Source: a virus. From it: a DNA stretch of 64,000 bases. The stretch's first letter is position 1, and each line of letters starts with the position of its first letter. This document shows positions 4,601 to 48,294 of this stretch, piece after piece. The DNA is taken from positions 1 through 64,000 of the IMG/VR virus record IMGVR_UViG_3300007511_000001; one strand, 5' to 3'. The position numbers were made by a program, and so were the translations under genes. Under the pieces are notes generated by a model. The model searched no databases. It had not been told where the DNA came from and saw only the letters and a list, made by a program, of their open reading frames with translations.

Positions 4601-5026
4601 CTATTGTTGCGCTGGTGGGTTCAGTGAATCAAGTGCTGCTTGCTTTGAGTAAACCGTTGTCCCCCGCTTACAACATACAGGGCATTTCCAGTACCAGTGA
4701 TTGCTAAGTGGCGTGTTGATAATATCAACTACAGCATCACAGCCGTAAGGACAGTTCGGCTCCCGTTGTTGCGCTGGGGTGAGTAATTCGTTGCTGACAT
4801 GACGAGCGCAATCACGCCAGCCATTTTGATAACTGTCGTTATCGTTGCCCCCTACAAGGGAGCATTTCCTTAGCAGCATCTCAACCTCACTCCTCTTCAC
4901 ATATTGCGACAGGTCGATCTCGGTGCAACCACCATAGCCGCAATCATCAAGCAGATTGACAATAAACTCTGGTGTTTCGTCTGGCTCTATGGGTATCTCC
5001 ATGACCAGCGTTTTGTTGTTGCTCAT
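4601..5026 (-). CDS. Lar-like zinc-ribbon protein (141 aa)
   Basis: The C-terminal third carries Cys92-x3-Cys96 and Cys115-x2-Cys118 followed by KRGTTVYSKQAALDSLN. This matches the layout of restriction-alleviation Lar-type zinc ribbons, where a Cys pair, an aromatic strand, a second Cys pair and an AI/AL...WN-like helix follow each other. Lar proteins reduce type I restriction. The N-terminal 90 residues are acidic and unfamiliar. An anti-restriction role is inferred from the ribbon alone. Coupled to the 74-aa gene upstream by ATGA. Confidence 0.6.
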   Translation of the reverse strand: MSNNKTLVMEIPIEPDETPEFIVNLLDDCGYGGCTEIDLSQYVKRSEVEMLLRKCSLVGGNDNDSYQNGWRDCARHVSNELLTPAQQREPNCPYGCDAVVDIINTPLSNHWYWKCPVCCKRGTTVYSKQAALDSLNPPAQQ

Positions 5027-5247
5027 AAATTCTCCCTTCTGATGCGTACTGGTAACAAGCCTTTGTTCAAAAACCCTGCTACCTTTTCACCCCATTCTTC
5101 AGGTGTTAATTCGGTAAGGGATAAAGTTTCATACTTGCCGTCACGAAGTTGCCGTACAAATATCTCATTTTCATATTCACGCAAACGCCAGAACCATTCA
5201 GCGAGATTTTGAGGCTCTTCTGGTGGCAGCGTTTTGTTGTCAGGCAT
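5023..5247 (-). CDS. Unknown 74-aa protein
   Basis: Two adjacent ATG codons follow a GGGAGGTG site; the second (5245-5247) has the better spacing. Acidic and aromatic (AEWFWRLREYENEIF), with basic residues at the end (VRIRREN). Overlaps the gene downstream as ATGA. Confidence 0.65.
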   Translation of the reverse strand: MPDNKTLPPEEPQNLAEWFWRLREYENEIFVRQLRDGKYETLSLTELTPEEWGEKVAGFLNKGLLPVRIRRENL

Positions 5248-25092: not shown

Positions 25093-25410
25093 ATGGTTAA
25101 GACATATTGGGAACTAATAGAGAAGAATGCCGGAGTGGTAAGTGGTACTAAGCGCTACTTACACCTACTACGGGGTGGGCATGCTAAAACATTAAATAGA
25201 GAAATAAATAAAAATTTAATATCCGGTATGCGCGCGAAAGGTATGGCTGATTTGCGAAGGAAGCAGTTTGTAAGGGGTCTTGCAGCATCTAGTAAAATTA
25301 ATGCCAGGGCAGCAGAGAAAGTTCGTGTCAAAGCAGCACGCGGTTTGACAGCTATGGGAATAACTGGCACTAGTACTACACTACTAGCACATAAAAAGCG
25401 TAAAAAATAA
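25093..25410 (+). CDS. TYWELIEK-tagged basic protein (105 aa)
   Basis: Start at ATG 25093-25095. The first residues MVKTYWELIEKNA are a tag shared with five other proteins of the window. The rest is very basic (GMRAKGMADLRRKQFVRGL) and ends LLAHKKRKK. Probable DNA-associated internal virion protein by tag and charge. A gap of about 175 bp without genes follows, with A/T runs and a weak GAG/CTC hairpin. Confidence 0.7.
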   Translation: MVKTYWELIEKNAGVVSGTKRYLHLLRGGHAKTLNREINKNLISGMRAKGMADLRRKQFVRGLAASSKINARAAEKVRVKAARGLTAMGITGTSTTLLAHKKRKK

Positions 25411-25586: not shown

Positions 25587-25772
25587 ATGTTAAAAGAATT
25601 AGGATTTCAAAAACGAGCTGCATTGCCCCTTGTACCATTAGCTATAGGTGCTGCTGGTGCAATAGGTGCGGGAATAGGAGTAAAAAAGTTTCTAAAAAAG
25701 AAAAAAGAAAAGAAACTAATGACGAATACATCGGATTCACCTAAACCGCGAACAGTTAATGTTAATTTATAA
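25587..25772 (+). CDS. LGF-tagged small membrane peptide (61 aa)
   Basis: MLKELGFQKRAALP tag, then one hydrophobic Gly/Ala segment (LVPLAIGAAGAIGAGIGV), then a Lys run (KKFLKKKKEKK). Looks like a membrane-inserting virion peptide. Confidence 0.7.
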   Translation: MLKELGFQKRAALPLVPLAIGAAGAIGAGIGVKKFLKKKKEKKLMTNTSDSPKPRTVNVNL

Positions 25773-26663: not shown

Positions 26664-27509
26664 ATGAACACTTATTGGGAATTAATAGAACAACACGAAC
26701 TTGAAAAACAAGCTAAGCTTGGTAAAGGTTTACAAACTATATTAAAAGGAAAAGCTCTTTTTTCACCAACAGCTTCACAGCAGATGCGCGGGCTAGCACA
26801 TACACATGGGCGAGAAGCAGCTAAACTTATGGCCAAGGGAGAGAAGAAGAAGGGCATTAGGATGGCACTTAAAGGCAAGCGAGCAAAAGGCATAAGTGGT
26901 GAACTCGGATTTCAAAAACAAGCTTACAGCCTGGAATCAACTCGGGAACATAACTACTTAGCGACCCATAAAGATGCATCAAACATAGATGCATTTTATG
27001 CAAATAAAACCAGCACTATGGCACAGCGTAACGCTAAAAGAATGTCTACCCCAAGGCTTCAAAAAGTTATAGCGGATATGGAATATTCTAAATCTATTGG
27101 AAAGCCGACCGCTAAGATTGCCCCCAGAAATAAGAAAGCTAAGGGCATAAATCCAAAAGATTCAAAGGCTTACAATAGATATATAGATGCTTTAAAGCTA
27201 GAACTGAAGCATCGACAGCATGGAATGTCTAAAACAGCAGGCGAAGCTGCAACGGCCTATAAAGTATTAAAACCTAAAGTATTAGAAATACTTAACGCAA
27301 GAAATTTTGCAGATGCAGATAGAATAGCCAGAAGTATACCGGTATTTTCCAAAAAACTGGAAAAGGTAACAAGAGGTAAAAAAGATAAACTAATATCAAA
27401 GTGGAAGACTGATGTAGGCAACACTATGGAAAAATCAGTTTCTGGTAATACCGAAAACCTGGCAGAGCATTATTTAAATAGAAGATTTAGAATATTTGAC
27501 GATATATGA
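26664..27509 (+). CDS. Mosaic protein with three tag-like modules (281 aa)
   Basis: Starts MNTYWELIEQHELEKQAKLG. A second tag lies inside (ISGELGFQKQAYSLE, about residue 80). A third junction, SKTAGEAATAYK near residue 190, is followed by a block paralogous to the 103-aa protein at 27749 (KPKVLEILNARNFADA versus KPVVLDALNVRSVRDA). All parts are very basic. It reads like a head-to-tail fusion of three internal proteins that a protease could separate. Confidence 0.75.
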   Translation: MNTYWELIEQHELEKQAKLGKGLQTILKGKALFSPTASQQMRGLAHTHGREAAKLMAKGEKKKGIRMALKGKRAKGISGELGFQKQAYSLESTREHNYLATHKDASNIDAFYANKTSTMAQRNAKRMSTPRLQKVIADMEYSKSIGKPTAKIAPRNKKAKGINPKDSKAYNRYIDALKLELKHRQHGMSKTAGEAATAYKVLKPKVLEILNARNFADADRIARSIPVFSKKLEKVTRGKKDKLISKWKTDVGNTMEKSVSGNTENLAEHYLNRRFRIFDDI

Positions 27510-27748: not shown

Positions 27749-28060
27749 ATGAACACATTCTGGGAAATAATTAAACAACACGAATTAGAAAAAACGGGTT
27801 CTGTAGGAACCGAAATGTATAGAACAATGAAACCGGTAGTGCTGGATGCTTTAAATGTAAGATCTGTAAGAGACGCTGCAAATGTTTCAAAAAGACTATT
27901 CGGTAAGGCGAACATTGCAGGAAAACATGAAGCGCTTGCAAAACTTCCTGACGCTCCTAAAAAATTAATATCTGCGCAAGGAGCCAGGATGGGATCAGCA
28001 AAAGATTTTTCCAAGAATACTGAGGAAATATATAAAAGATATTTTGATAAATTATTTTAG
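27749..28060 (+). CDS. TFWEIIKQ-tagged basic protein (103 aa)
   Basis: MNTFWEIIKQHELEKTGSVG is a clear tag. The body (YRTMKPVVLDALNVRSVRDA ...) is paralogous to the last third of the mosaic protein at 26664. Small, basic, probably internal. Confidence 0.7.
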   Translation: MNTFWEIIKQHELEKTGSVGTEMYRTMKPVVLDALNVRSVRDAANVSKRLFGKANIAGKHEALAKLPDAPKKLISAQGARMGSAKDFSKNTEEIYKRYFDKLF

Positions 28061-35864: not shown

Positions 35865-36365
35865 ATGAGCAGATTTAAGACACCGCCCGTAGATATAAAT
35901 ACTGTTGACCTTTATCACATCAAGGGGAATATAGTATTTTATAGACCTAATGGCGTAGCTGGAAAAGCTATACTATTATTTGCAAAAAAATACAGCCACA
36001 CAGCTCTAATTCTGGACAAGGATCACGAGCTGGACGCCGAATGGAAGCGCGGAGTAACAATCAATGCTCCAGATTGGTCACGCAAGATTGACATGGTCAA
36101 GCTTCCGTTTGATAAGGTAGCGTATGACCTTACCTGGAAAAAGTACAAAGACGGCGGCTATGGCAAGCGCCAACTCTTTGGTATGGCATTCCGTAGGTGG
36201 CGTATTATTAGTACCAAGGGTGCGGTCTGCTCAGAGCTAATGGCCTTTTACCTGATGAATCATAGATGGATTAAAGAAAAGGGCATTAAACTTGACGAGA
36301 AGGATCCTAACTATTATACTCCATATATGGTTTACAAGTTAGCAAGAAAAATGAGAGATGCTTAA
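35865..36365 (+). CDS. Permuted papain-like hydrolase (YiiX/NlpC-P60 type), 166 aa
   Basis: GNIVFYRPNG, KKYSHTALILD (His45) and AVCSELMAFYL (Cys122) occur in the order His then Cys, as in circularly permuted papain-fold enzymes of the YiiX/NlpC-P60 superfamily. These hydrolyse peptide or amide bonds, in phages often of peptidoglycan. A role in wall crossing at entry is plausible. Confidence 0.65.
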   Translation: MSRFKTPPVDINTVDLYHIKGNIVFYRPNGVAGKAILLFAKKYSHTALILDKDHELDAEWKRGVTINAPDWSRKIDMVKLPFDKVAYDLTWKKYKDGGYGKRQLFGMAFRRWRIISTKGAVCSELMAFYLMNHRWIKEKGIKLDEKDPNYYTPYMVYKLARKMRDA

Positions 36366-36366
36366 A

Positions 36367-36594
36367 ATGAATACATTTTTAGAATTATCGGAAACAAATC
36401 CGACCAAGGAACAGCTAAAGAAAAATGCTGCTCAATACCACGATACCTATCCAGAAGCTAGTCACGGGTTTGCTCACTTGACAACCTTTGATTTAATGGA
36501 TGAAGCTGACCGCGATCACATGAGACTCGCGGCTAACAGGAAAGCTTCGGCTGGTCCAATAAGAAATCTAAAGGAGATCTTTAGAAATGGCTAA
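36367..36594 (+). CDS. MNTFLEL-tagged 75-aa protein
   Basis: Start at ATG 36367 matches the tag family better than the ATG 9 nt earlier. MNTFLELSETNPTKEQ leads to LKKNAAQYH; body acidic-His mixed, overlapping the next gene by 8 nt. Confidence 0.6.
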   Translation: MNTFLELSETNPTKEQLKKNAAQYHDTYPEASHGFAHLTTFDLMDEADRDHMRLAANRKASAGPIRNLKEIFRNG

Positions 36595-38280: not shown

Positions 38281-39169
38281 GCGCTACATTCAAGTTTTGA
38301 TGGTTGGAGGTTTATCTTCTCAGGCCATAATCTATGATCTAAATCAAATGAACTTGCCTATACCCCACCCGGCAGGTTTAATCCAAAATTTATATAAAGA
38401 CTTGTATAATACCAACCCTGATCATTTTGATGAGGGGGACAAAGATAAGCCAGATATGAGCTGGCTAGAAAAACTGGGACTTGATTCTTTGTTCGCTTAT
38501 AAGTTTAATAAGGGGTGTAAAAAAATGGACCCGGGAATAAAGGGAGCTTTTAAGATCCTGGAAGATCCACTGATGCGCCGGGCTATTCAATCACTTGCGT
38601 TCGCGAAGGTTACGAACGAAGACATCGAACTTATCGTCAACGGTAAGTTTGACATAGGCTATGCCACTGAAGATTTTGAAGCCTTCCTCAAATACTTCTT
38701 CGATGTGCATGATTGGAACTACAACGAGCGTGTAGAATTTATCCAATTTGAGCAGTCTTCGGACAATAAACGTTTTTACAAGCTCGCCCTAGATGGCGAT
38801 AAACCCTACCTCATGTGGAAATTAGGTCTCTCCCCAAGCCGAAGTTTTGACGACATGTTAAGGGAAATGTTCAATGATTCGTTCTATAATTTTAAAGAAC
38901 GTTCACGACATGACCCAGAACTTGCCCAGAGGTGGGGCACCCTCGCCGTTAAACTATCTGACAAGCTAGATAAACTAGACAAGGACGATCTAGACAGGGA
39001 AGAACTTTTCCAGAATTTAGAATTTGATACTGATTCATTTGAAAATAGGGAACAAACTTTCCCAGGCGCCGAAGAAATAGAAGGAGCACCTACTTCGGAT
39101 GATTTAGAAATAGACGATAGTATTAGTATAGAAGATTTAATAGAACGAGGGCAGCTGCCGGATGAGTAA
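38252..39169 (+). CDS. Unknown acidic protein upstream of terminase (305 aa)
   Basis: Helical and acidic; the C-terminal 70 residues are very acidic (EEIEGAPTSDDLEIDDS). Its place two genes before the terminase large subunit and its acidic tail would suit a packaging or head-assembly factor. No small-terminase signature is visible. Codon use in 38600-38900 is G+C richer than neighbours. Confidence 0.6.
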   Translation: MEKKLLIPHKRYIQVLMVGGLSSQAIIYDLNQMNLPIPHPAGLIQNLYKDLYNTNPDHFDEGDKDKPDMSWLEKLGLDSLFAYKFNKGCKKMDPGIKGAFKILEDPLMRRAIQSLAFAKVTNEDIELIVNGKFDIGYATEDFEAFLKYFFDVHDWNYNERVEFIQFEQSSDNKRFYKLALDGDKPYLMWKLGLSPSRSFDDMLREMFNDSFYNFKERSRHDPELAQRWGTLAVKLSDKLDKLDKDDLDREELFQNLEFDTDSFENREQTFPGAEEIEGAPTSDDLEIDDSISIEDLIERGQLPDE

Positions 39170-40085
39170 AATTATTTTACCTTCTGCGGCTATTTTAGGA
39201 ACCGGTGTTGGAACTGCACTGGGGAATAGGTTTTTTGTTGACAGGTATAACAAGAAGCACGGTCCGAAGTCTTTCACTGAATTACAGAAACAGTATAAAG
39301 ACGTTAAACCGGGCGATGTTTTAATGGTGCGTGATTCTCATATGAGAGGGCCATCACACACCGCCGTGGTTTCTAGTAAGAATAGAATCACGGAAGTATT
39401 AGTCCCACAAAGGCATAAAGAGGTAGTTAGGTCTACAACACTTAATAAGTTCCTTAAAGATAGAGCGATTAAAGATGGTCAATTTATTCCTGATCAGGCT
39501 ATCAAATTTTCAGATGCTTTTCGTCCAGAAAAAGTGAATAAGTCTAAACTCAAGCGCTTGTCGGATAGTATGGTATCAAAAGGCAAGGAGTTCAAAGTTA
39601 AATATGACCCTTTGGCTAACATAGTATACAATACTACCCTGGAAGGGGTTGAAAAGGCTAAAGCGACTTGTGTATCTTTTACTAATAGTTTATTGCGAGA
39701 AGCGGGCGCTAAGACGCCAAAGAAAGCTCCAGTGTTTCCAAGGTCTTCTGTAAAGGGCTTGAACAAAATAACAAAAATTAAGGCAAGAGAAGCTTATACT
39801 GCGCCTCTTGGTATGATGACTGCGGCAGCAGGAGTGATAGCCTTAGCTAAAGGCAAAAAGAAAATAGGATTACCCCTTATGGCCGCAGGCGTATTAGCCA
39901 ATGCTGTTCCTGTTACTAGGGATGCAGATAATTATATATCCAGTACAGCCACCAGGATGGTAGGCCGTAACCTAAAACATACATTTTCTACTAATAAAAA
40001 GGACCAGCCTAATCTAGATATGGGCATAGGCGCTACTGCGCTTGGTGTTCCTTCTGCTTTAGGGATAGCAAAGTTACTAAAATGA
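39162..40085 (+). CDS. Permuted papain-like hydrolase with membrane tail (307 aa)
   Basis: KPGDVLMVRDSHMRGPSHTAVV (His66 in the conserved SHT) and KATCVSFTNSLL (Cys170) give the same His-then-Cys order as the protein at 35865. Residues 215-260 contain two Gly/Ala hydrophobic segments. Compared with the shorter paralogue it adds a membrane-interacting C-terminus. Probably a virion-associated amidase or peptidase used at entry. Confidence 0.65.
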   Translation: MSKIILPSAAILGTGVGTALGNRFFVDRYNKKHGPKSFTELQKQYKDVKPGDVLMVRDSHMRGPSHTAVVSSKNRITEVLVPQRHKEVVRSTTLNKFLKDRAIKDGQFIPDQAIKFSDAFRPEKVNKSKLKRLSDSMVSKGKEFKVKYDPLANIVYNTTLEGVEKAKATCVSFTNSLLREAGAKTPKKAPVFPRSSVKGLNKITKIKAREAYTAPLGMMTAAAGVIALAKGKKKIGLPLMAAGVLANAVPVTRDADNYISSTATRMVGRNLKHTFSTNKKDQPNLDMGIGATALGVPSALGIAKLLK

Positions 40086-41632
40086 GATCACCGCAGACGA
40101 TTAAATTAAAAAAATCTCAACTAGTTGAGAGGTTATTTTACCTCAATGGCAATCCTTTGTCCTTGAAGGATTATCGTCATATGCGTCCCATTTACGACAT
40201 GGATGATTCTAAACTAGTTATGCAGTTTGGAAGGCAGACTACGAAATCTTCTACTATGGCTAATATCATGTTGGCTAATAGTATTATAAAAAACGGGTTT
40301 CACTCCATGTATGTATCTCCTACAGTGGACCAGACTAAGGTATTTTCAAATGATAGGCTAGCGCCGCTCATTGAAAGTTCCCCGTGGATTAAGAAAATGT
40401 ATATTAGTTCCAAATTGGAGCAAAACGTTTTTCGTAAAAAACTATTGAATCAGTCAACAATGTATCTTAGATACGCACTTTTAAGTGCGGACAGGCTTCG
40501 TGGTTATTCGAACGACATGATTTTATATGATGAGGCACAGGATTTACTGCAGGACATAGTACCAATTGCAAACCAGTCCATGTCACGTTCTTTATACAAA
40601 CGCGTAATGTTTGCTGGCACCCCTAAAAGAACTGTGGGTACTTTAGCATTCTATTGGGGCAAATCCAGTAAGAATGAGTGGATGCCAAAGTGTAGTCATT
40701 GTAATAAATACAACTATTTAGACGAAAAGAACATTGGTACTAAAGGTTTAATTTGTCGACACTGCGGCGGAGCTTTAAACCCAAATGATGGTTTGTGGGT
40801 TCGCACGGGCAAAAAAGATGCTGAGTATCAAGGTTTTAGAGTATCACAGCTTCAGTTCTTTGGCGCTCCTTGGGTTGATTGGAAAAATGATATCATAATC
40901 CCAATGGAGGATTATGGCGCTGCTCAATTCTATAACGAGGTTTTGGGCATTGCGCATGATGAAGGTGTAGCTCCTATTACAGAAGCTGAAATAAAAGCAT
41001 GCTGCACCGGTGGACCAATGACAGACAAGCCTAATCAAGCTGATAAGAGTTACAAATATGCACTTGGTCTTGATTATGGTCCTGTTAACTCCAATGCCTC
41101 TTTTACATTACTTTCTGTAATGCATAAAATTCCAGGTAAAACAGATGTTGTTAAGGTTAGGTATTTAAAGAAATACGATGGCAAAGAAGCAGATTTTTCT
41201 TATATACATCAGGATATACCTAGACAATTTAATACTTGGAGAGCGACTATAGCCGGTACAGACTATGGTCTGGGCGAGGCGTCTAATTCAGAACTGCGAG
41301 ACCGCCTGGGTGATGATAAGATTATAGCTTACCAACACTTAGGTACACAAAAAGACCGTATAAGATGGAACCAGCGTATGCGTGCTTATACACTTTCACG
41401 CAATACAGTAATGACACAGTTCTTTAACAAAATTAAAAAGAAGAAAATTATTTTTCCCCAATGGGAAGATTTTAAACCATTTGCCAGAGATATCTTAGCA
41501 GTATCTATTGATTATGATGAAGATAAGGGCAAAATGGCATACATAAACTCAGAACCAGATGACGCTCTACATTCTATGTTATACGGGGCTTTAGCGCTCG
41601 AGCTAGTGGAAGGAATGTCAGATGAGTACTAG
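40082..41632 (+). CDS. terL: Terminase large subunit (516 aa)
   Basis: Packages DNA into proheads with an ATPase motor and a headful or sequence-specific nuclease. Walker A is GRQTTKSS (residues 50-57), Walker B is MILYDEAQ (Asp150, Glu151). A zinc ribbon (Cys204, Cys207, Cys225, Cys228) is inserted after the ATPase part. The RNase H-like nuclease has ALGLDYGPVN (Asp331), a second acidic loop AGTDYGLGE (Asp394), and a third near DDALHSMLYG. All key residues are present and length is normal. ATGA overlap with the gene before. Confidence 0.95.
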   Translation: MRSPQTIKLKKSQLVERLFYLNGNPLSLKDYRHMRPIYDMDDSKLVMQFGRQTTKSSTMANIMLANSIIKNGFHSMYVSPTVDQTKVFSNDRLAPLIESSPWIKKMYISSKLEQNVFRKKLLNQSTMYLRYALLSADRLRGYSNDMILYDEAQDLLQDIVPIANQSMSRSLYKRVMFAGTPKRTVGTLAFYWGKSSKNEWMPKCSHCNKYNYLDEKNIGTKGLICRHCGGALNPNDGLWVRTGKKDAEYQGFRVSQLQFFGAPWVDWKNDIIIPMEDYGAAQFYNEVLGIAHDEGVAPITEAEIKACCTGGPMTDKPNQADKSYKYALGLDYGPVNSNASFTLLSVMHKIPGKTDVVKVRYLKKYDGKEADFSYIHQDIPRQFNTWRATIAGTDYGLGEASNSELRDRLGDDKIIAYQHLGTQKDRIRWNQRMRAYTLSRNTVMTQFFNKIKKKKIIFPQWEDFKPFARDILAVSIDYDEDKGKMAYINSEPDDALHSMLYGALALELVEGMSDEY

Positions 41633-42158
41633 AACATATTGGGAGCTTATGACGAAGAGAGCAGCTTACGACGATAAACGTGGTAGGTACTTTATAGCAA
41701 TCCCCACCATATCAGGTGGACCAGAACACATGACAATAAAATTTTTGGGGGACTTAACTGGCAGTCAAGTAGACAAAGTTAAACTCCAAATGGAAGATAT
41801 AAACAAAATACAAAAAATGCCATTGGTTAGTGAAGGCGTTGGGATACTTGGTAGAAAAAATTTATTTATGGTTAATTTTATTGAAGATAAGGACAAACGT
41901 CTAAAAGATCTTTTTAATATTTTTAATAATAAAAAATCACCTATCACGCCACACGTAACTTCGTTCAAGGTAAAAACACCTACACCGCCTTCAGGATATA
42001 ATTCTGGCGGTATGCGACCAATGGATACTATATTAGCAGATAAAGTGGTACTATATAAGACATTAGGTGCCTACAAATACAAATCGGTACATGAAGTTGT
42101 GCTTAAAAAAAGAACCCCCTGGACTTGGATAAAGGACAGATTTGCAAATTGGGTGTAA
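41622..42158 (+). CDS. Tagged 2H phosphoesterase (178 aa)
   Basis: Residues 1-15 are the tag MSTRTYWELMTKRAA. The body has the two HxT motifs of the 2H phosphoesterase (LigT) superfamily: HMTIKFLGD (His36, Thr38) and PHVTSFKV (His111, Thr113), 75 residues apart as expected. The superfamily hydrolyses 2'-5' or cyclic phosphodiesters; T4 Acb1, which destroys CBASS cyclic oligonucleotides, belongs to it. The tag suggests packaging into the capsid. Anti-CBASS activity is inference. Confidence 0.8.
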   Translation: MSTRTYWELMTKRAAYDDKRGRYFIAIPTISGGPEHMTIKFLGDLTGSQVDKVKLQMEDINKIQKMPLVSEGVGILGRKNLFMVNFIEDKDKRLKDLFNIFNNKKSPITPHVTSFKVKTPTPPSGYNSGGMRPMDTILADKVVLYKTLGAYKYKSVHEVVLKKRTPWTWIKDRFANWV

Positions 42159-42940: not shown

Positions 42941-43547
42941 CGATTTTATAGAACAGTATAAGCAAGGAAATATACCTAAAAGCACCATAATTAAAATGGC
43001 TGCTCTTAAGGGCGAAATTGAAAAGCTGGCTGAAGACTCAAGGATGCCTAAAAGTTGGGGAGGGTTTAAAGGTTCGGCTAAACAGCTTGGGTACATAGCT
43101 TTAATCTCTGCTTTAGCTGGCGGTGTAATGACGGCCGGAGCCAAAGGATTAGAGAAGCTTGACGAGAAGTTGTTTGATGACAAACGCAAATTAAAAGCGT
43201 TTAAAGATATGACATCTAAATTTCCAGAGTTACTAAGAGATAACGATAAGAAAGCTGTTGTTGATTATTTCTCTTCTTTATGGCATTTTTCACCTCATAT
43301 AGCTAATGACCCCATGGCGGCGAGATCATATATTAAGCATGCACTTACCTTACATGAAGTGGGCGGTCCTACTTATATGACTTATAAAGATTTGATTTCT
43401 GCCCAAGAAAAAGCAGGGAAAACAAAAGACGCCGGACCTCTTAATACAGCAATGCAGTTTCCGCTTGCACAAGTACAGCAATTCAGCGGACCTTTTGATA
43501 AATATGATTATTATGGACAACCAAACGTTAGTCTATCAGGCTCATAA
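42930..43547 (+). CDS. Head-module protein with one membrane-like segment (205 aa)
   Basis: N-terminal tag-like part IIKMAALKGEIEKLAEDS with two K-x-A sites, then a hydrophobic segment (YIALISALAGGVMTAGAKG), then a polar helical domain. Ends one base into the protease start (TAATG). Function unknown. Confidence 0.6.
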   Translation: MTTNDFIEQYKQGNIPKSTIIKMAALKGEIEKLAEDSRMPKSWGGFKGSAKQLGYIALISALAGGVMTAGAKGLEKLDEKLFDDKRKLKAFKDMTSKFPELLRDNDKKAVVDYFSSLWHFSPHIANDPMAARSYIKHALTLHEVGGPTYMTYKDLISAQEKAGKTKDAGPLNTAMQFPLAQVQQFSGPFDKYDYYGQPNVSLSGS

Positions 43548-45259
43548 TGTTAAAACAACCAGAATATGAATTACATGACTTAGGTGTAAGCGTTGAGCTT
43601 CTCGACGTAGGCGGAATTGCGCCTTTGGAGAAAACGGCCGAGATGTCAACCGATCTTCAAACCGCTATTTCTGCTATAAAGCCTACTTCTGGTAAAGTAT
43701 ATATTTTAGTTAACGCTCTGGGTGCTGGTGAATACTATGGCAGTAATAGAAACGGTGATTACTTTCCGGAAAGAGTTCTTAAACAATATCATAAAACATT
43801 TGAAGCCTTAGCCAGAGTATACAAGCACCATAAAAACAAAGATCCTCTTAGAAGTTATGGTAAACCTGTATTTAGCCATTACAATGACAGCATGCACCGT
43901 GTAGAGCTTATACTTGAAATAGACAAGGGCAAAGATCCTAGAATAGAACAAAAAATCAAAGATGGAGACATTAAGGTTTCCATGGGAGCCAAGGTGCCGT
44001 TTGATATTTGTTCTATATGCGGTCATAAGTCCAGAAAGATGTCTGAATACTGTGAGCATTTACGCAGGCCGGTTCTTAATAGCACATTGTCTGACGGGCG
44101 TAAAGCGTACGCCATAAATACACAACCTAAATTTTTTGATATTTCTATTGTAACCATCCCAGCCGATAAAACAGCTTTCATGATGAAGAAGGTTGCATCT
44201 GCTGAGGTAGCTATGCCTTCAGTTGAAATTGCTCATGAACTATTTAAACGGGCTAGAGTTAAAGAAGCGGAAATAGAAAAAGAGATAGAAGGCGAACCAA
44301 TTGCCGTAGACACAGATCCTAAAAAATTGGTATATGAATCACAAGACGAAATACCGAAAAAAGAATTACTTGCTCTTGTAGATAAGTATGGTGCAGAGAA
44401 TTTATTACGCGGATTGGCAGAGCTCCACATAATGCCAAAGCCTGTTGATTTTCAGCGCATAGTATTACATAAGAACAAGATGTTTGATTTGCTAGAGCAG
44501 CTTGAAAACGCAAAAAGAGTATTTCCTGTATTACCAGATATGGAAGAATCTCCATTCGAGTGTTCTAGAGATTCTTTACCCCATAGTTTATATAATGATA
44601 TAGCCCCGTATGTACCAGATCGCGCGCTGTCCAAGCCATTAATAATTATTCGTATAATGAAAAAATATGCGCAATATGGCCCTCAGATGCCGGAAAATGT
44701 ATTTACACCGTATTCTAAGAATGAGCTTGCACAGATGGAGAGAGGTTCTCATGTGCGCACGCCTATATATAAAAACCCGGCTCTACCGTTGATAGGTTTG
44801 GGTGCTATGTATTTGGGGTATTCAAAATATTTTAAGAAAGCTATCAACCGCGGGAAGCTTGAAAAAAAGTTTCTTTCTAAGCCGTGGATGTTTCCATTAG
44901 TTGCTTTTGGTATCGGCGCCGGTGCAATAGGTGCCCAAAAATTACATGAGGCCAGGCTCAGTGAGATGGCTAATATGAAAAAATATGCCGCAACTAATTA
45001 TTTGACTGGTCTGTTAGTATCTTTACCCGCTACGTATTATACGTCTTACAATGTCGGGGCCAAGAAAAGATATGGCCAACCTGTTGGAACTATAGAAAAT
45101 ACAGTGGCTAAGCATCCACTAATAACCGGCGCAATGGTCGGAACGGGAGCAGCAGCTCTTATGAAAAGGCTTACAAAAGTGGCTTCAGCTTCGCATCTGA
45201 CAGAGCTAGAACCACACGAATTAGACGAATTGTATAAAAAACTTGTACTTAGAACTTGA
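43547..45259 (+). CDS. Prohead maturation protease with zinc site and membrane-like C-terminus (570 aa)
   Basis: Residues 50-210 carry the prohead protease fold: NRNGDYFPE, KPVFSHYNDSMHRVELI (catalytic His probably 111 or 117), DIKVSMGAKV (Ser145) and FFDISIVTIPADKTA, close to the DISxV..PA..A end of gp21/HK97-type serine proteases. A zinc cluster (Cys155, Cys158, Cys169, His171) is inserted. Residues 400-540 hold three hydrophobic Gly-rich segments, unusual for the family. K-x-A sites at LEKTAEMS (residue 31) and elsewhere could be self-cleavage sites. Confidence 0.8.
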   Translation: MLKQPEYELHDLGVSVELLDVGGIAPLEKTAEMSTDLQTAISAIKPTSGKVYILVNALGAGEYYGSNRNGDYFPERVLKQYHKTFEALARVYKHHKNKDPLRSYGKPVFSHYNDSMHRVELILEIDKGKDPRIEQKIKDGDIKVSMGAKVPFDICSICGHKSRKMSEYCEHLRRPVLNSTLSDGRKAYAINTQPKFFDISIVTIPADKTAFMMKKVASAEVAMPSVEIAHELFKRARVKEAEIEKEIEGEPIAVDTDPKKLVYESQDEIPKKELLALVDKYGAENLLRGLAELHIMPKPVDFQRIVLHKNKMFDLLEQLENAKRVFPVLPDMEESPFECSRDSLPHSLYNDIAPYVPDRALSKPLIIIRIMKKYAQYGPQMPENVFTPYSKNELAQMERGSHVRTPIYKNPALPLIGLGAMYLGYSKYFKKAINRGKLEKKFLSKPWMFPLVAFGIGAGAIGAQKLHEARLSEMANMKKYAATNYLTGLLVSLPATYYTSYNVGAKKRYGQPVGTIENTVAKHPLITGAMVGTGAAALMKRLTKVASASHLTELEPHELDELYKKLVLRT

Positions 45260-45336: not shown

Positions 45337-45861
45337 ATGGCTTTAGATTTACAAGAAGTTCTATCTAGTTTATCGTCAAAAACTAATCCAGAAGATAATT
45401 TTTTCGCCAAGCTTGCTGAAGATAATGAAGCTGCAGCAGAGCCGGTACAAGAACAAGATTTGGAAAAAATTGCTGAGTTAGAGAATTTAGGACGTGAATT
45501 TGGAAGAGCTTTTGCAGAGGACCTGGAAAAGGTTGCTGTTGGTAAGGTTGGCATGACACCAGAAACTGGTGCTCCAATGAACCCAGCGGTAGCAATGCCA
45601 GCAAACAATGCGGATGTTAATCCTGAAGTATTAGCTCAAGTTATGGCACTGATTAACCAAGCAGCAAGCGGTGTTGGACAAACAGGTTCATTAGTCGCAG
45701 GGTCTGTAGGTGGGGTAGGGGCAGCAACTCCTCAAGCACCGGCAGCTCCGGACCAGTATCCGATTGCAGCTGACGCCATAGGAACTGTTGGACGTGAAAA
45801 AACGGCCGCGGATCGTGTAGTTGGTACCATTTGGGAAAATTACTTCGGAGGTGAAGAATAA
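45337..45861 (+). CDS. Scaffold-like acidic protein (174 aa)
   Basis: Acidic and helical with FFAKLAED, DLEKIAELE, AEDLEKVAVG and REKTAADR. Residues 95-150 are Ala/Pro/Gly-rich. The piece LGREFGRAFAEDLEKVA resembles the FEAFQRGxNxEL tags at 24294. Strong AGGAGG. Likely a prohead core protein. Confidence 0.6.
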   Translation: MALDLQEVLSSLSSKTNPEDNFFAKLAEDNEAAAEPVQEQDLEKIAELENLGREFGRAFAEDLEKVAVGKVGMTPETGAPMNPAVAMPANNADVNPEVLAQVMALINQAASGVGQTGSLVAGSVGGVGAATPQAPAAPDQYPIAADAIGTVGREKTAADRVVGTIWENYFGGEE

Positions 45862-46151
45862 TGACTGGACTATTAGACCTTTACGAAAACATGACGAAAG
45901 AAGCAGAAGTTTCTCAAGAGCAAGTTGTTGCTGACCAAGAACGCGTTGAGGTTATTGAGAAGTATGCGAGTTTCGCGGAAGATGCTTTGGTAGAAAATGG
46001 CGAACAATACACAGAGGATGACGTAATTAAGCTTGCCTGTGCGATGATTGACCATGATCTCGAAGTAGAAGACAATATGGAAAAAGTGGCCGAATTAGAC
46101 GAAGCGGGAAGAATTATGGCGCGTGCTTTTCTATCCGAATTACAGGGATAA
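45861..46151 (+). CDS. Small acidic core-type protein (96 aa)
   Basis: TAATG coupled, GGAGG upstream. Contains NMTKEAEVS, IEKYASFAED, NMEKVAELD and the end EAGRIMARAFLSELQG, similar to FGRAFAEDLEK in its neighbour. Confidence 0.6.
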   Translation: MTGLLDLYENMTKEAEVSQEQVVADQERVEVIEKYASFAEDALVENGEQYTEDDVIKLACAMIDHDLEVEDNMEKVAELDEAGRIMARAFLSELQG

Positions 46152-46180
46152 GAAAAAGCTGAATAATTCTGAGGTATAAG

Positions 46181-46561
46181 ATGGCCAATTTACAAGAGAT
46201 ATTAGAGGCATCCGACATTCAAACCAATCTTGACTTTGGTGATGGCCATGTTAAGGTTGCAGAGGAGTCTGCTGATACTTCTGTGAATTTAGATAAGGAT
46301 TCGATAGAGAAATTAGCCGAAGTTTTGGATGCTTTGGGCGAAGAGGATTCTATCATTGATGAGATGGCTAAAATAGCTGTTTTAAAAGATATGTTAGATG
46401 TATCGGAGCTTACAGAAGATGATAAAACAATGCTGAAAGAAGCTGGGTTAATTTTACCTCCTTTTGCCGATAGAGAGCCAGATCTTAATCGTTTTAAGTA
46501 TCTAGCCGAAAGGCTGGCTGATGGCGAAGCACTTTTACCTGCGGGGGAAAGTAATGAATAA
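46181..46561 (+). CDS. Acidic core-type protein (126 aa)
   Basis: Acidic helices with VKVAEESA, IEKLAEVLD, MAKIAVLKD. Same design as the two genes before it. Confidence 0.6.
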   Translation: MANLQEILEASDIQTNLDFGDGHVKVAEESADTSVNLDKDSIEKLAEVLDALGEEDSIIDEMAKIAVLKDMLDVSELTEDDKTMLKEAGLILPPFADREPDLNRFKYLAERLADGEALLPAGESNE

Positions 46562-46880
46562 TCGTGAAATCCTTAAACAGGCAGCTGCTACTCTTCGTGG
46601 ACTTTCAGGTAGAGTAGAACAGTTAGAGGCAGAGAAACATGTTTTTGACAAAGCACTTTCTCTTACTTCTAAGCTTATAGACGAGGGTCAAATATCTTCG
46701 GGTAAAGCTCTTGAAAAATTAGCTGAACTTAGAGACGAGACCTTAGATGATTTGGTTACGTTGGGCAAGGCAATCGAACTTACTAAAAACTCCGACTTTC
46801 AGGTAAAACTGGGAGAAGTTGCGGATGAAAACAGTAAAGATGGCAATGATCCTCTAACCAGTTTTTTACTAGGCGACTAA
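46554..46880 (+). CDS. Coiled-coil core-type protein (108 aa)
   Basis: Start ATG 46554-46556 (GGGGGA upstream) gives MNNREILKQAAATLRG, a tag with K-Q-A. Coiled coil follows; LEKLAELRD and a C-terminal FLLGD. Probably scaffold or core. Confidence 0.6.
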   Translation: MNNREILKQAAATLRGLSGRVEQLEAEKHVFDKALSLTSKLIDEGQISSGKALEKLAELRDETLDDLVTLGKAIELTKNSDFQVKLGEVADENSKDGNDPLTSFLLGD

Positions 46881-47367: not shown

Positions 47368-48294
47368 ATGTCTTATGATGTTGATCCTAAAGTCCTTACT
47401 GAGTTATTCTTAACTAAGATGGACACAGACATGGAAAAGACAGCTGCAGAGGCTGGTGCCTTCGTACGTATGAGATTACGTGAACTTTCGTTCATGCGTA
47501 AAATCATGCAACCGGAGTATGTGACCGCAGCGGACTGTCAACGTTCCGTGAACCATGACCAATTGGTCAAAATCGTGGATAAGGAACCCAATTCAACAGC
47601 GCAGGCGTTGAATTTCCGTGGTAAACCAAATGCCAATTATGTAACAGGCGAACGTTACGAGATTTCTTTCTATATGATCAGCTCGGATGATTTCCAGAAG
47701 ACCGAGGAAGAATTACTTGCATACGAAATGCCTATTACAGACGTTATCGAAAGAAACTCTGTAAAAGATATCCAGAAAATTGAAGACACCAAATTCATGG
47801 AAACTATTTCTGGTATTTGCTCAGGGACAGGCGGAAAAGAAGACACAATTGCTGTAGCATCTGGCACAGCTCTTAATCCTATTCCACCTAGTGTATTTAG
47901 ACAAGGATTTAACTTGTTAGAAGAAACAAGTGGATCCTCACCTCACTACACTGATTTGATTCTTATGAATCAATCCGATTACAATAAACTTATTGAGTGG
48001 AACAGTTCTCAGGTTGGCGATTCAATTGCTAACGAGATCACTATCAATGGTTTTACTTACCCAACACTGTTTGGTAAAAAAGTAATCTCTACCATTAAGG
48101 GAGAACTAGTACCAGAAAACGATCTTTACTTCTTCGCTCCAAAAGAATACTTAGGGCACGCTTATATTCTAGGCGATACTAAATTCTGGATCAAGAAAGA
48201 AAAGAATCTAGTCACCTGGGCTGCTTACGAGTTCATTGGTGTAGGTATTGGTAACATTAATGGAGTTGCAAGAATAACATATTCTGTAACATAA
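47368..48294 (+). CDS. Major capsid protein (308 aa)
   Basis: Perfect AGGAGG. The N-terminus DMEKTAAEAGAFV holds a K-x-A site and could be a short propeptide. The body shows features of HK97-fold capsids: an N-terminal arm, an extended E-loop region around residues 60-110 (VDKEPNSTAQALNFRGKPNAN), a helix-rich P domain, and an A-domain end with LVTWAAYEFIGVGIGNINGVARITYS. Followed by a strong terminator, as usual for the most expressed gene. Confidence 0.85.
   Translation: MSYDVDPKVLTELFLTKMDTDMEKTAAEAGAFVRMRLRELSFMRKIMQPEYVTAADCQRSVNHDQLVKIVDKEPNSTAQALNFRGKPNANYVTGERYEISFYMISSDDFQKTEEELLAYEMPITDVIERNSVKDIQKIEDTKFMETISGICSGTGGKEDTIAVASGTALNPIPPSVFRQGFNLLEETSGSSPHYTDLILMNQSDYNKLIEWNSSQVGDSIANEITINGFTYPTLFGKKVISTIKGELVPENDLYFFAPKEYLGHAYILGDTKFWIKKEKNLVTWAAYEFIGVGIGNINGVARITYSVT

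Follow-up and report, generated by a model that had tools for sequence, protein, structure and literature searches.

The gene directly behind the large terminase gene of this large uncultured phage raises two questions: whether its product, a 2H phosphoesterase with a short N-terminal tag, is carried to the host in the phage head, and on what it would act there. The window analyzed here is a 64,000-nt part of a virus record of 189,182 bases.

A 2H phosphoesterase encoded behind the terminase

The gene, its neighbor, and the segments of its product are located as follows:

40082 to 41632, + strand: large terminase subunit, whose stop is overlapped by 11 bases by the start of the 2H ORF
41622 to 42158, + strand: 2H phosphoesterase ORF, LigT/ThpR-like, 178 aa (TIGR02258, E = 2.9e-5; E. 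coli LigT in Foldseek, E = 8.7e-5)
41622 to 41666, + strand: N-terminal tag MSTRTYWELMTKRAA with the candidate prohead-protease site K-R-A (K12-R13-A14), common to five other cargo ORFs and the orthologue described below
41667 to 41681, + strand: YDDKR, a variable linker that joins the tag to the domain, with 0/5 residues identical to the orthologue
41727 to 41735, + strand: first catalytic motif, H36-M-T38
41952 to 41960, + strand: second catalytic motif, H111-V-T113
42111 to 42155, + strand: C-terminal tail RTPWTWIKDRFANWV, outside the LigT fold, with 12/15 residues identical to the orthologue

The ORF starts with ATG, with GGAAGGAA upstream. The two HxT motifs that are the hallmark of the 2H superfamily were found exactly where the initial annotation had placed them (residues 36–38 and 111–113), in the ORF as it had been described, and they are retained in all four of the 2H relatives found. 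The assignment to the 2H phosphoesterases was backed by Pfam, NCBIfam, and Foldseek, and the product of this ORF is almost certainly a 2H enzyme. A promoter and terminator scan around the gene revealed nothing clearly above chance.

An orthologue with 55% identity occupies the same place after the terminase gene in IMGVR_UViG_3300035698_017294 (L004). Mismatches between the two genes at the first, second, and third codon positions were 0.31, 0.25, and 0.64, respectively, which indicates that the 2H gene is under coding constraint. By segment, the identity was 60% in the tag, 0% in the linker, and 54% in the domain. Conservation in the C-terminal tail (42111 to 42155) exceeds that in the enzyme domain, and LigT has no counterpart of the tail. 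The 2H domain is rare among 50 related records, where it was found in the window phage, in L004, and, as part of a fusion, in G011, of which G050 is a near copy. Searches of cultured phages gave no 2H relatives of significance, and bacterial and archaeal genomes scanned with 2H alignments gave no confirmed relatives.

Affiliation with LigT/ThpR and comparison with Acb1

The sequence profiles placed the protein near the cellular RNA-end-healing enzymes of the LigT/ThpR and PH0099/PF0027 type. With the NCBIfam profile TIGR02258 (RNA 2',3'-cyclic phosphodiesterase), the window copy scored 24.0 bits, the orthologue 27.6 bits (2.3e-6), and the domain of the fused relative 41.1 bits (1.7e-10), all three below the curated cut-off of 65.7 bits. 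For Pfam LigT_PEase (PF02834, cut-off 23.3), the window copy stayed below the cut-off with 18.1 bits, and the orthologue (24.8) and the fused domain (28.7) lay above it. The protein matched E. coli ThpR in blastp (2e-4), the 2H alignment matched LigT/ThpR in hhalign (1.7e-5), and a three-row 2H profile matched PH0099 and PF0027-type entries of the PDB at 1e-7. The AlphaFold model reached a pLDDT of 48 with a two-sequence input, and a pLDDT of 59 and a pTM of 0.57 with a four-row alignment, which is moderate. Foldseek with the latter model ranked E. coli LigT first. The VIA Z values were 10.9 for PH0099, 10.5 for LigT, 9.7 for the rotavirus VP3 phosphodiesterase, and 9.2 for Usb1; because LigT, VP3, and Usb1 are all among the fold matches, the fold does not settle the substrate.

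Besides the best fold matches, the protein shares with LigT/ThpR and PH0099/PF0027 the two HxT motifs and the HMT-KFLG and PHVT signatures, and yet it is only ~15% identical to them in structural alignments. Of the LigT ligand residues R6, F8, F48, and R130 (PMC5283653), the first three align with R22, F24, and F41 of the 2H protein, and the place of R130 is held, by position, by K116. In contrast to LigT/ThpR, the stretch from strand 1 to the first HxT is shortened, and the tag and the C-terminal tail of the phage protein are additions to the cellular form. Hydrolysis of RNA 2',3'-cyclic phosphate is a candidate activity of the protein.

The gene had also been proposed to encode an anti-CBASS enzyme of the Acb1 type, and the Acb1 identity was not borne out. 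T4 Acb1 (gp57B, PF23474) is likewise a phage member of the 2H superfamily with an HxT/HxT tetrad, but it carries no packaging tag. PF23474 gave no match to the 2H protein at E ≤ 1, whereas T4 57B was detected at 2.7e-60 in the same test. In blastp against T4 Acb1, TPHVT alone aligned, and hhalign against an alignment of six Acb1 sequences gave a probability of 2% with PHxT alone aligned. The HSTIxYSR segment of Acb1 corresponds to HMTIKFLGD in the 2H protein, where YSR is missing and the LigT-like KFLG(D/E) stands instead. The base-stacking residues of Acb1 are Y12, W74, F107, and W147 (PMC9117128); these had no reliable alignment to the 2H protein. Acb1 was not among the PDB rows listed by VIA, an absence that is uninformative, and in the structure search of the 2H model a viral Acb1 model appeared at rank 43 (E = 0.82). 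The Acb1 profile also gave no match over the 50 related records, but there the controls were silent as well. We therefore rejected the Acb1 identity: profile, blastp, and profile-profile comparison gave no Acb1 relationship, and HMM, blastp, hhalign, and fold led to LigT/ThpR. The 2H protein is close to LigT and outside Acb1.

A true Acb1 was found elsewhere, in the Salmonella phage Arash, a cultured distant relative (capsid 32%, terminase 29%). Its gp143 (L155:34465-34917, − strand), annotated as RNA ligase, matched PF23474 at 1.3e-15; it has no tag and does not resemble the window 2H protein. The Arash particle proteome lists gp143 with 14 unique peptides and 204 spectra, along with many cytosolic enzymes, of which the authors warn that some may be carry-over (PMC10585845). 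With gp143 untagged and carry-over possible, the listing weakly supports a virion-borne Acb1, and it has no bearing on the 2H protein of the window.

The N-terminal tag and the K-x-A motif

The tag of the 2H protein, TYWELMTKRAA, has K-x-A at its end, and the orthologue keeps it as MNTRTFWEYMSKHGA. A regex search in the first 60 residues of the 269 genome ORFs found the TYWEL-type tag in 6 ORFs. All matches were N-terminal, on the + strand, and confined to 25–42 kb, which argues against chance. The carriers are otherwise unrelated cargo ORFs of the late block that precedes the head genes; L004 has two carriers. The other five carriers in the window, all identified by the regex for the tag, and the head genes are:

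25093 to 25410, + strand: tagged cargo ORF MVKTYWELIEKNAG
26664 to 27509, + strand: tagged cargo ORF MNTYWELIEQHELEKQA
27749 to 28060, + strand: tagged cargo ORF MNTFWEIIKQHELEKTG
36367 to 36594, + strand: tagged cargo ORF MNTFLELSETNPTKEQLKKNAA
36587 to 36898, + strand: tagged cargo ORF MANTYWELMTKEAAP
43547 to 45259, + strand: head maturation (prohead) protease, likely the K-x-A protease (phrog_18299 head maturation protease, E = 5.1e-11)
45337 to 46880, + strand: core/scaffold-like ORFs, rich in K-x-A
47368 to 48294, + strand: major capsid protein, whose conserved N-terminal site reads K-T-A

Several other cargo ORFs of the same block, with no function assigned (window positions 25587, 29464, 30991, 33899, and 37558), carry a different N-terminal tag, MLK(K/E)LGF...K-x-A, which also occurs in wider relatives. 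K-x-A/G follows the tag in 7 of 8 cases for the TYWEL type and in 13 of 13 for MLK(K/E)LGF. Two further ORFs of the cargo block, 39162 to 40085 and 35865 to 36365, resemble permuted papain/NlpC-type hydrolases by eye; their database matches were weak or uninformative.

The K-x-A motif was enriched in the head proteins. The protease-core-capsid group contains 39 K-x-A against 14.9 expected (2.6-fold), and other K-to-A spacings were near expectation. In the cargo block, K-x-A/G was present within residues 6–30 of 24 of the 39 ORFs (13.6 expected; maximum of 23 in 1000 shuffles), whereas the rest of the genome showed no excess, with 36 of 215 N-termini against 40.8 expected. Of 50 distinct relatives, 49 have K-x-A directly before the conserved (E/A)GSAF(I/V)R-KLRE of the capsid protein, and one has K-V-S. 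The core proteins of Arash contain 44 K-x-A against 18.9 expected.

From these data, we infer that the prohead protease cleaves at K-x-A and that the tag serves to target proteins to the capsid. The 2H protein is quite probably packaged in the head, and its tag is likely cleaved by the prohead protease, because the tag is shared across the cargo block, the orthologue retains it, and K-x-A is enriched in head proteins. The initial annotation had called the N-terminus a capsid tag and had taken the position of the gene as support for packaging. The shared N-terminal cargo tag is real and the late head operon was confirmed; packaging is the best reading of this arrangement, with the word capsid resting on sequence.

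Such tags have precedents. In T4, the capsid targeting sequence of the internal proteins and Alt is a short N-terminal peptide on unrelated cargo and is probably removed by the prohead protease. The sequences of the T4 peptide and the window tag are unrelated, and the window site looks like K-x-A. In SPN3US, N-terminal propeptides of at least 20 residues are removed from head proteins by gp245 in the head, and many of the proteins are ejected; the SPN3US site is A-x-E, in contrast to the K-x-A proposed here (PMC10052503). The phage family is widespread and almost uncultured, and the tag together with the putative K-x-A site allows its head cargo to be listed by a simple rule.

Possible roles of a probably head-delivered 2H enzyme

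Injected 2H enzymes are, as a general idea and with a signaling role included, already known. Fusions of 2H domains to MuF or portal in polyvalent proteins were reported by Iyer et al. 2017 (PMC5512222), who did not see these domains alongside RNA ligases and suggested that, delivered by the virion, they act as RNases or degrade signaling nucleotides. Common to both cases are a phage 2H domain and its actual or presumed delivery by the virion alongside other proteins. Unlike the domains of that study, which are fused to MuF, portal, and others, the window protein is standalone with a short tag in front, and the fusion seen in a relative is to a LigD-phosphoesterase and a DNA ligase. The novelty lies in the 2H protein in its standalone tagged form, in the K-x-A rule, and in the 2H-LigD_N-ligase polyprotein, and the literature searched contained no paper that combines the three. 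A small, self-contained, separately tagged 2H protein makes the function of injected 2H enzymes directly testable.

Our preferred reading, which we hold tentatively, is that the enzyme is delivered by the head and heals nucleic-acid ends. A LigT/ThpR-type 2H phosphoesterase would be produced late in infection, enter the prohead by means of its N-terminal tag, and probably be freed from the tag at K-x-A by the prohead protease. Injected along with the genome, it could act on the host as the phage DNA enters; on broken nucleic acids it would open 2',3'-cyclic phosphates, or clear away comparable blocks at 3' ends, and the cleared ends would then be sealed by ligases. In this reading, packaging, cleavage, injection, and substrate alike are inferred. 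Clearing of cyclic ends for ligation is the role assigned to phage 2H enzymes in a jumbo-phage survey (PMC7824862), and the same role has been described for viral genomes (PMC9503650).

End healing is favored by the fusion of the related 2H domain to a LigD-phosphoesterase and a ligase. In G011 and G050, the domain lies within a virion-type protein of 917 residues, together with LigD_N (3'-phosphoesterase) and an ATP-dependent ligase, and is bounded by ILEKKA and LKKKAEYAPG. G043 encodes the same polyprotein without the 2H part, with KKILRKQAEYAPG, which suggests that a 2H module located between K-x-A sites was either gained by insertion or lost. In the relative, the 2H domain is thus one module of a repair polyprotein that looks packaged, with likely protease sites on either side of the module. 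The LigD_N-ligase gene is located a few genes before a tail sheath-like gene in both G050 and the window phage. The 917-aa polyprotein of 2H, LigD 3'-phosphoesterase, and ATP-dependent ligase is listed at L133:5755-8508 and in L134; it contains several K-x-A sites, at which it may be divided. The window phage genome also encodes PNKP, an Rnl1-type ligase, a second RNA ligase, a further DNA ligase, and a PE-ligase. These associations connect the 2H domain with the processing and sealing of ends.

Several points weigh against end healing. The fusion favors the link but does not prove it: the likely protease sites around the fused 2H domain could separate the parts, and the fusion may mean co-packaging and not a shared pathway. 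The ligase of the polyprotein is of the DNA-ligase type, whereas 2H enzymes classically work on RNA ends. The PNKP that the window phage already encodes has a phosphatase domain. KptA, which would remove the 2'-phosphate left by a 2H enzyme, was not found in the genome search, and Iyer et al. (PMC5512222) argue that virion-delivered 2H domains are not tied to RNA ligases.

The first alternative retains the function of Acb1 in another family: an injected 2H phosphodiesterase of LigT descent would destroy the cyclic oligonucleotides of CBASS, or 2'-5' nucleotides, from the start of infection. We consider this rather unlikely, though it is the best placed of the alternatives. 2H folds with such activities occur in rotavirus VP3 and in Acb1, early delivery would suit such an enzyme, and the idea was put forward for virion-delivered 2H domains (PMC5512222). 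Against this, similarity to Acb1 is absent by profile, blastp, and hhalign, the LigT-like segment takes the place of YSR behind HxT, and the related 2H domain is fused to a ligase and a phosphoesterase. The presence of the true Acb1 of Arash in a virion proteome list (PMC10585845) is in favor of this alternative, but that protein is untagged and the list is rich in cytosolic enzymes. The stronger form, in which the head-loaded enzyme erases cyclic or 2'-5' alarm nucleotides before any phage gene is expressed, is somewhat less likely still; if true, it would be a second 2H lineage of the anti-CBASS type, independent of the first, which forestalls the alarm rather than following it.

An injected Usb1-like RNase or RNA-trimming enzyme, or an Appr>p hydrolase, that hits host RNA or metabolites after entry is improbable. 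Usb1 and Arabidopsis CPDase are among the fold matches, RNases were preferred for the 2H domains fused to MuF or portal (PMC5512222), and NAD salvage enzymes are encoded in the phage genome; however, the sequence profiles favor LigT/ThpR instead, and neither KptA nor another source of Appr>p was found in the genome. It is equally hard to credit that the protein stays unpackaged and works late in the cell, for example in DNA packaging beside the terminase, whose stop its gene overlaps, with the N-terminal motif serving in head-assembly docking or as a shared regulatory peptide, since unrelated cargo ORFs share the tag with K-x-A, which also looks like the capsid protein N-terminus with its conserved K-x-A.

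Further loci were noted in the window phage and in other phages. On the minus strand at G000 121535-126349 (L008, L009), PNKP, a T4 Rnl1-like ligase, NUDIX, NAMPT, and a NUDIX-domain protein, perhaps an NMN adenylyltransferase, are encoded in a cluster, and RNA repair thus adjoins NAD salvage. At G000 80024-81096, neighboring E1/ThiF-like and JAB-like ORFs possibly form a ubiquitin-like processing pair, as judged by eye. No 2H gene was found in the relatives L005, L098, and L099, which encode standalone LigD-type phosphoesterases 2–3 kb upstream of the terminase (L005:6587-7003, L098 about 4879-5133, and L099:5133-5567); it is possible that these, which have no obvious tag, replace the 2H enzyme. 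In an unrelated phage, a 736-aa DUF2213-ChaB-2H ORF (L153:2831-5041) lies directly before a capsid-like gene, and the 2H domain is thus again in a head context.
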